A stretch of 6,190 nucleotides of DNA from positions 3,883-10,072 of the forward strand of contig JACQWU010000010.1 in NCBI GenBank assembly GCA_016209155.1. Reading direction: 5' to 3'. Positions 2,557-5,173 of this stretch are shown piece by piece (within the stretch, counting starts at the first letter, position 1; every line of letters starts with the position of its first letter). The notes beneath the pieces were generated by a model. It did not search any database and was not told where the DNA came from. It was given only the letters and a program-made list of their open reading frames with translations. This stretch comes from Candidatus Desantisiibacteriota bacterium (GTDB lineage Bacteria > JACRDZ01). Position numbers and translations under genes: made by a program.

Positions 2557-2844
2557 ATGACAATAAAACCTATGTTTGATAAAGTTTTAATAAAACCTCT
2601 TGAAGCAAAAGAGCAGATTAAAGGTGGTATTATTATTCCTGATACTGCAAAAGAGAAACCGCAGGAAGGCGAAGTTAAAGCCATTGGTTCAGGGAAAGTA
2701 TTAGAAAACGGACAGAAGCAGGCCTTCGTTGTAAAAGTTGGAGATAAAGTGCTTTTTGGTAAATATTCCGGTTCAGAAGTAAAACTTGATGATGTAGATT
2801 ATTTAATTATGCGGGAAGAAGATATACTCGGTATTATATCTTAA
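2557..2844 (+). CDS. groES: Co-chaperonin GroES (Hsp10)
   Basis: GroES forms the heptameric lid of the GroEL folding chamber in the cytoplasm. The 95-aa product has the normal length. It carries the N-terminal strand [12 protein letters not shown]; the mobile loop (about 17-33) with [14 protein letters not shown], whose hydrophobic III tripeptide docks on GroEL apical domains; the [10 protein letters not shown] block; and the C-terminal [34 protein letters not shown] typical of the family. The start is ATG 2557. The purine-rich ribosome binding site (AAAGGAGG, 2538-2545) is 11 nt upstream, a little long. An out-of-frame ATG at 2549 begins a three-codon frame whose TGA overlaps the groES start. 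groES leads the operon, 27 nt before groEL, under the CIRCE operator. Confidence 0.97.
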
Positions 2845-2868
2845 TAAATCTAAATGAAAGGAAGATGA

Positions 2869-4512
<1,644 letters not shown>

Positions 4513-4683: not shown

Positions 4684-5007
4684 ATGCGCAAATTTTATAT
4701 ATTTTCATTTGTAATGTTTCTTGCTAGTGCAATGTTTTTTTCTGGTATATCAAAAATATCCGCAGCCGAAGAAGAAGCTATAGGTTCTGAATCGACTGAA
4801 AAAACAGCTACTACAGAAATAAAAGAAGAAACCCATGCAACTTCAGATACCAAAGCTGCAGGGGAAGTAATTGCCCCGGCTGAAACAACTGAAGAATCTG
4901 CAACTAAAACTGAAGGGGACACTTCTGCCGAAATGAAAAAAGATGAATCAAAACCTGCTGAGACTACTACACCAGCACCTAGTTCAGAAGAACCAACTCT
5001 AGAATAA
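4684..5007 (+). CDS. Exported, low-complexity acidic Thr/Glu/Ala-rich protein, 107 aa
   Basis: This matches no family I know. Residues 1-27 form a signal peptide: MRK, a hydrophobic core rich in Phe and Met, then SKISA with likely cleavage before AEEE. The 80-residue mature part is almost all Glu (19), Thr (16), Ala (12), Ser (8), Lys (7) and Pro (5). It has no Cys, Trp, Tyr or Phe and a net charge of about -15, so it is almost certainly disordered. No strict repeat unit is seen, only loose TE/TK/AETT motifs. I start it at ATG 4684, because AGGAGGAGGTG (4668-4678) is a very strong ribosome binding site ending 5 nt upstream. The longer frame from ATG 4642 would place that site inside the coding region. 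It ends with tandem TAA TAA and has its own consensus promoter and terminator. A periplasmic or surface spacer, or a Thr-glycosylated or metal-binding acidic protein, is possible but unproven. Confidence 0.75.
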   Translation: MRKFYIFSFVMFLASAMFFSGISKISAAEEEAIGSESTEKTATTEIKEETHATSDTKAAGEVIAPAETTEESATKTEGDTSAEMKKDESKPAETTTPAPSSEEPTLE

Positions 5008-5020
5008 TAATCACATTGTA

Positions 5021-5052
5021 ATAAAAGGGGGAATACGTCTTCCCCCTTTTAT
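5021..5052 (+). terminator. Hairpin terminator after the Thr/Glu-rich protein gene
   Basis: A perfect 13-bp stem (5021-5033 with 5040-5052) encloses a 6-nt loop. Its G5/C5 core is flanked by AAAA and TTTT, so the only U run is the TTTT at 5047-5050 within the stem's 3' arm. It starts 11 nt after the second stop codon. The symmetric A4/T4 flanks could allow termination in both directions. Confidence 0.8.
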
Positions 5053-5056
5053 CTGG

Positions 5057-5105
5057 TTGTGTCAATCCATCCCTGCCTTTCTAAGGTAGGGATGGATTGG
5101 CACAA
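5057..5105. repeat. Long near-perfect palindrome (23-bp stem, 3-nt loop)
   Basis: Positions 5057-5079 pair with 5083-5105 around the loop TCT. Twenty-one pairs are Watson-Crick, and the other two (5062-5100 and 5075-5087) are G.U pairs if read as + strand RNA. The arm contains CAATCCATCCCTGCCTT. No T run follows on either strand, so it is a poor fit for a terminator. It starts 4 nt after the preceding hairpin. A dispersed palindromic repeat, an end of a small mobile element or an RNA processing or stability structure are all possible. Confidence 0.75.
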
Positions 5106-5137
5106 AAATCAATAATAAAGAATTCCTATCAGAGACA

Positions 5138-5173
5138 GAAGATACCCTGCGGCCTCTGCGGGTTCTTCATTTT
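5138..5173 (+). promoter_or_regulatory. Bulged hairpin in the mntP leader
   Basis: GAAGA (5138-5142) pairs with TCTTC (5164-5168), ACCC with GGGT, and GC with GC, with single-T bulges at 5143 and 5148 and a 7-nt loop (5151-5157). ATTTT follows. It could be a weak terminator or attenuator, or a structured leader. I see no recognisable yybP-ykoY manganese riboswitch sequence, although that element often precedes mntP genes elsewhere. Confidence 0.4.

Follow-up and report, generated by a model that had tools for sequence, protein, structure and literature searches.

The window, a 6,190-nucleotide stretch of DNA from a Candidatus Desantisiibacteriota bacterium, carries groES-groEL (2557-4512), with a CIRCE-type operator upstream (TTAGCACTC-N9-GAGTGCTAA, 2473-2499), and mntP. 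The small protein encoded between groEL and mntP (4684-5007) is predicted to be secreted, has a high content of E, T, A and S and had no Pfam match. Beyond it are a terminator-like hairpin and a long palindrome, the subject of this analysis.

By direct reading of the sequence, positions 5057-5079 (TTGTGTCAATCCATCCCTGCCTT) pair with 5083-5105 (AAGGTAGGGATGGATTGGCACAA) around a TCT loop (5080-5082), giving 23 pairs, 21 of them Watson-Crick and two wobbles (T5062-G5100 and G5075-T5087). The initial annotation had described the extent of pairing, the 3-nt loop and the two non-Watson-Crick positions exactly so, and the terminator hairpin that it placed ahead of the palindrome was found as well, at about 5024-5050. 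When the window was scanned for palindromes with ≤2 mismatches and a loop of 3-8, this was the longest, at 23 bp, while the best in 30 first-order shuffles of the window reached only 11-16 bp. Therefore, the palindrome is not a chance product, and we confirm it as real. It makes up the left portion of a longer repeat with a second hairpin toward its right end, and the features of this region are as follows.

5024..5050, + strand: terminator-like hairpin and T tract of the upstream gene, outside the repeat, read from sequence
5048..5170, + strand: complete copy of the repeat (TTTAT...TTCTTCAT), 123 bp against 127 bp in the consensus, with ends as in 26 aligned full copies
5048..5052, + strand: TTTAT, conserved left boundary and candidate target or left cleavage sequence
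5057..5105, + strand: left-end (LE) hairpin of 23 pairs, the palindrome of the initial annotation
5106..5137, + strand: conserved AT-rich linker joining the LE and RE hairpins
5138..5168, + strand: right-end (RE) hairpin, GC-rich, GAAGA(T)ACCCTGCGG...CGGGTTCTTC
5166..5170, + strand: TTCAT, conserved right boundary

The window copy (C329:8930-9052) begins inside the T tract of the preceding terminator, a hairpin that is absent upstream of most other copies. TTAT forms the left boundary in nearly all full copies, the base before it (the first T) being variable. Should TTTAT/TTAT be the target, the element itself would cover 5053-5170. The repeat unit starts TTTATCTGG and finishes TTCTTCAT, with a consensus of ~127 bp (TTTATCTGGATGTGCCATTAATACCCTGCCTTTCTAAGGCAGGGATGAATTGGCACAAAAATAAATAATAAAGAATTCCTATCAGAGACAGAAGATACCCTGCGGTCTCTGCCGCAGGGTTCTTCAT). 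Its ends are fixed (TTAT|CTG on the left, TTCAT| on the right) and are uniform in 26 full copies with unrelated flanks. Past TTCAT, almost all copies continue with A or T, a position that is not otherwise conserved. Full copies measure 119-130 bp, too short to code for a transposase, and no ORF or coding sequence lies between the hairpins. Palindromes stand close to both termini, yet the repeat has no terminal inverted repeats (CTGGATG on the left vs. ATGAAGA as the right-end complement), and no target duplication was shared at the junctions of copies, whose flanks are AT-rich.

Both hairpins fold on the same strand, with z about −8 as DNA and about −7 to −8 as RNA. The consensus RE hairpin has the form GAAGA-T-ACCCTGCGG...CCGCAGGGT-TCTTC, of which the window copy is missing ~4 nt in the 3′ arm. 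The motif ATACCCTGC/GCAGGG is common to LE and RE, and in copy L029 the LE variant CGTAAGC is present in an RE arm; this sharing and swapping look as if one protein might read both hairpins. The hairpin foot is CTGGATG, CTGGAAG or CTGAAAG. At the right end, pairing is guide-like, with the 5′ foot GAAGA pairing to a TCTTC that overlaps the terminal TTCAT. On the left, a clear guide (AA pairing with TT) was seen only in CTGAAAG-type copies and not in the majority CTGGATG type.

To count copies, we searched the genome itself, a 3.08-Mb draft in 352 contigs that is 79% complete. A similarity search with window positions 5020-5130 returned some forty matches. We trained a covariance model on 23 distinct full copies; it gave 77 matches at E ≤ 0.01, corresponding to ~64 distinct places once antisense matches to the same hairpins are excluded. 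At E ≤ 3e-5 there were ~57 distinct places, of which 30 hold a nearly full-length copy. Many copies have decayed, and the older ones are either truncated or without their hairpin tips. Almost all copies are intergenic: of 40, 39 do not fall within any ORF of ≥70 aa. The same model found no match in 289 other genomes, including three others of the phylum. Two exact patterns likewise had no match in 84,980 GTDB species genomes or in IMG/VR viral contigs, scans that may leave out the records of this genome and of near ones. Rfam yielded no family at the gathering score, the sole window match being a sub-threshold miRNA match. The initial annotation had named a dispersed palindromic repeat (REP/MITE-like) as an alternative and had looked to copies in the genome and its relatives; the first is strongly supported, and the copies proved numerous at home and absent from the other genomes searched. 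We consider it highly probable that this is a dispersed mobile DNA repeat, and its copies form a real, well-defined family, new as a sequence and of a known kind.

Some copies have noteworthy neighbors. In L010, a copy starts a few bases past the 3′ CCA of a tmRNA gene, and in L036 one starts a few bases past the 3′ CCA of what appears to be a tRNA gene. A right-end fragment in L102 adjoins a CIRCE-type site of the kind that the window has upstream of groES-groEL. Several copies (L012, L019, L026, L035 and L121) also have another short dispersed hairpin, CCTGAATCTGAAGTGCAAGATTCAGG, nearby.

Our preferred reading, to which we assign a probability of roughly 60%, is that the repeat uses a PATE/IS200-type route as a transposase-free mobile DNA element. 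We favor it because the repeat has two subterminal hairpins, a fixed left-flank sequence, no inverted repeats, no duplication seen and no transposase. PATEs in Haloquadratum are transposase-free relatives of IS605-type transposons (PMC3119063). In IS200/IS605 elements, TnpA binds a hairpin at each end, and insertion occurs 3′ of a tetra- or pentanucleotide recognized by a guide at the hairpin's 5′ foot (PMC7290912). By such a route, the short non-coding element of ~120 bp would have spread within its own genome as the LE and RE hairpins formed on one single strand of DNA. Both hairpins would be recognized by a Y1 (HUH) transposase provided in trans, which would cut after TTAT on the left and after TTCAT on the right. 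The single-stranded element would then reinsert 3′ of another TTAT without target duplication.

The repeat resembles the PATEs of Haloquadratum walsbyi (PMC3119063) in its lack of terminal inverted repeats, its many copies, its being too short for a transposase, the mutually similar palindromes near both ends and the lack of visible target duplication. In both cases, palindromes are also occupied by a small TIR-bearing repeat. By contrast, no related IS605-type transposon was found in this 79% complete genome, the left palindrome here is very close to the left end, and the host is not an archaeon but a bacterium whose phylum is sparsely sampled. With IS200/IS605 elements (IS608-type; PMC7290912), the repeat shares subterminal hairpins on one strand, a short conserved left-flank tetranucleotide (TTAT) and guide-like pairing at the foot of the right hairpin. 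Unlike them, it has no tnpA, tnpB or Y1 transposase gene inside, its cleavage sites are predicted ones, and most copies show no clear left guide.

The occupying repeat is itself dispersed. It is 120-155 bp long with 16-bp terminal inverted repeats (GGGGCTGTCCAAAAAG), and we located it at L030:803-948, L096:620-739, L039:261-390 and L034:3840-3969, with further copies in L115-L121. In 4 of the 11 TIR-bounded copies inspected, it occupies the position where the first repeat would be expected to have its LE or RE hairpin, and in at least three copies it replaces that hairpin foot to foot. In this it recalls the SMR-A repeats of Haloquadratum, which insert into the palindromes of PATEs.

The genome encodes six Y1_Tnp proteins, but the LE/RE hairpins were not found at any of their six loci. 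Within the 79% of the genome that is covered, there was no TnpB and no IS200-type TnpA or TnpB carrying the repeat's ends, and an incomplete genome leaves room for a missing transposase partner. No empty site was seen, and TTAT is thus a candidate target, rather than an established one, as opposed to an end of the element. When the joined flanks of the C20 copy were searched for, a related repeat at C327 matched for only 7 bases beyond the junction, which is not enough for an empty site, and joining the flanks of copies restored no gene.

A fairly unlikely alternative is a REP/REPIN-type repeat that depends for its mobility on a REP-associated Y1 protein (RAYT) encoded in the same genome. REPs with RAYTs (PMC2817692, PMC3733652) are likewise intergenic hairpins of high copy number, and the six Y1_Tnp proteins here include RAYT-like ones. 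However, GTAG/CGTC tags at the hairpin foot sort most REPs (PMC3733652), and the foot of this repeat carries neither tag. The repeat has its two hairpins in a fixed unit of ~120 bp, and no Y1 gene adjoins it. Moreover, three Y1 genes (L046, L048 and L049) are flanked by different, GTAG-type palindromes (for example, GTAGGGAACGGTTT around L049:1441-1998), which makes them probable RAYT/REP pairs of other families. Palindromes of yet another sort occur at L044:1639-1696, 1712-1754 and 2526-2583; these are imperfect, end in GTTAGGC...GCCTAAC and are integron attC-like. They surround an ORF (1837-2241) in a possible cassette array on contig C314.

A somewhat less likely reading is a family of single-stranded-DNA elements, lineage-specific and transposase-free, whose mobilizing enzyme is not a standard IS200/IS605 TnpA but, for instance, a Y1 protein of 330-367 residues from this genome; the hairpins would then also serve as the homing target of the 120-155-bp mobile repeat that replaces them.

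The initial annotation had favored selection for a + strand RNA, on the grounds that both imperfections of the palindrome are wobbles on that strand. Selection for a + strand RNA helix should tolerate G·U pairs but not A·C pairs. When the arms of all copies were paired under a scheme that scores G·T and A·C equally, we counted 28 G·T vs. 26 A·C mispairs, or 20 vs. 19 with identical positions collapsed. The two kinds were equally balanced in each hairpin (LE, 12 G·T vs. 10 A·C; RE, 16 vs. 16), and this absence of strand bias does not sustain the claim. A single C-to-T change from the family sequence explains each wobble in the window copy, and little can rest on just two such changes, a small number by the initial annotation's own account. 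Orientation relative to genes was also unbiased, by approximate counts from ORFs called with a simple script: 18 copies share the strand of their upstream gene and 21 lie on the strand opposite to it, and codirectional gene pairs around copies number 12 ++ and 8 −−.

Stem changes do covary among the copies. Both sides have changed in 8 of 26 pairs, with 23 cells vs. 6.3 in shuffles. Compensatory changes include CCTGCGG/CCGCAGG vs. CTCGCAG/CTGCGAG in RE and CCCTGCC/GGCAGGG vs. CGTAAGC/GCTTACG in LE, and copy L090 has compensatory arms AGCGCTATTAA/TTAATAGCGCT. Still, part of this need not be selection, as it looks like arm homogenization by template switching, and the remainder is equally expected for single-stranded DNA hairpins read by a transposase. 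A functional + strand RNA dispersed in the genome, whether a small RNA or an mRNA 3′ end structure, would fit the strong RNA fold, the covariation and the intergenic placement of copies. Yet wobbles and gene orientation show no bias, copies are often decayed or truncated, and neither Rfam nor the relatives searched gave a match at threshold, leaving this reading very improbable.

Why, then, does the window copy pair so well? In the family consensus, LE has an internal loop and its arms disagree at 5 of 19 positions, indicating that near-perfect pairing is peculiar to the window copy rather than family-wide. In the window copy, the 5′ arm shows 6 differences from its consensus counterpart but only 2 when set against the reverse-complemented consensus 3′ arm. 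The C166 copy is of the same kind (6 vs. 1), and the C73, C337, C280 and C70 copies show the converse, their 3′ arm having been made to match the 5′ arm. Quasipalindrome template switching rewrites a whole arm and does so in both directions (PMC7202029, PMC8794818). Because whole arms have been rewritten in both directions among these copies, we propose that, in the window copy, template switching during replication probably replaced the left arm with a copy templated by the right one.

Equally improbable as an RNA function is a retro-element-like or other copying mechanism, in which an RNA intermediate would leave 5′-truncated copies. Right-end-only fragments do seem commoner than left-end-only ones (about 13 vs. 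7), but detection is biased to the GC-rich right end, the left end is identical in all full copies, and there is no A-tail or other hallmark. Least credible is a MITE of a DDE transposon, which would be similarly short, non-coding and high in copy number, given that the repeat lacks terminal inverted repeats and shows no target duplication and that it is the separate TIR-bearing repeat in this genome that does resemble a MITE.

The family carries a broader message. One copy of a DNA repeat in decay can present as a striking, near-perfect hairpin with seemingly strand-specific wobbles, and a single template-switching step can produce "compensatory" changes in the arms. Only the whole family of copies distinguishes template switching and a DNA repeat from selection on RNA. 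The family brings PATE-like elements into a poorly sampled bacterial phylum, and its numerous copies provide material for the study of hairpin-dependent mobility.
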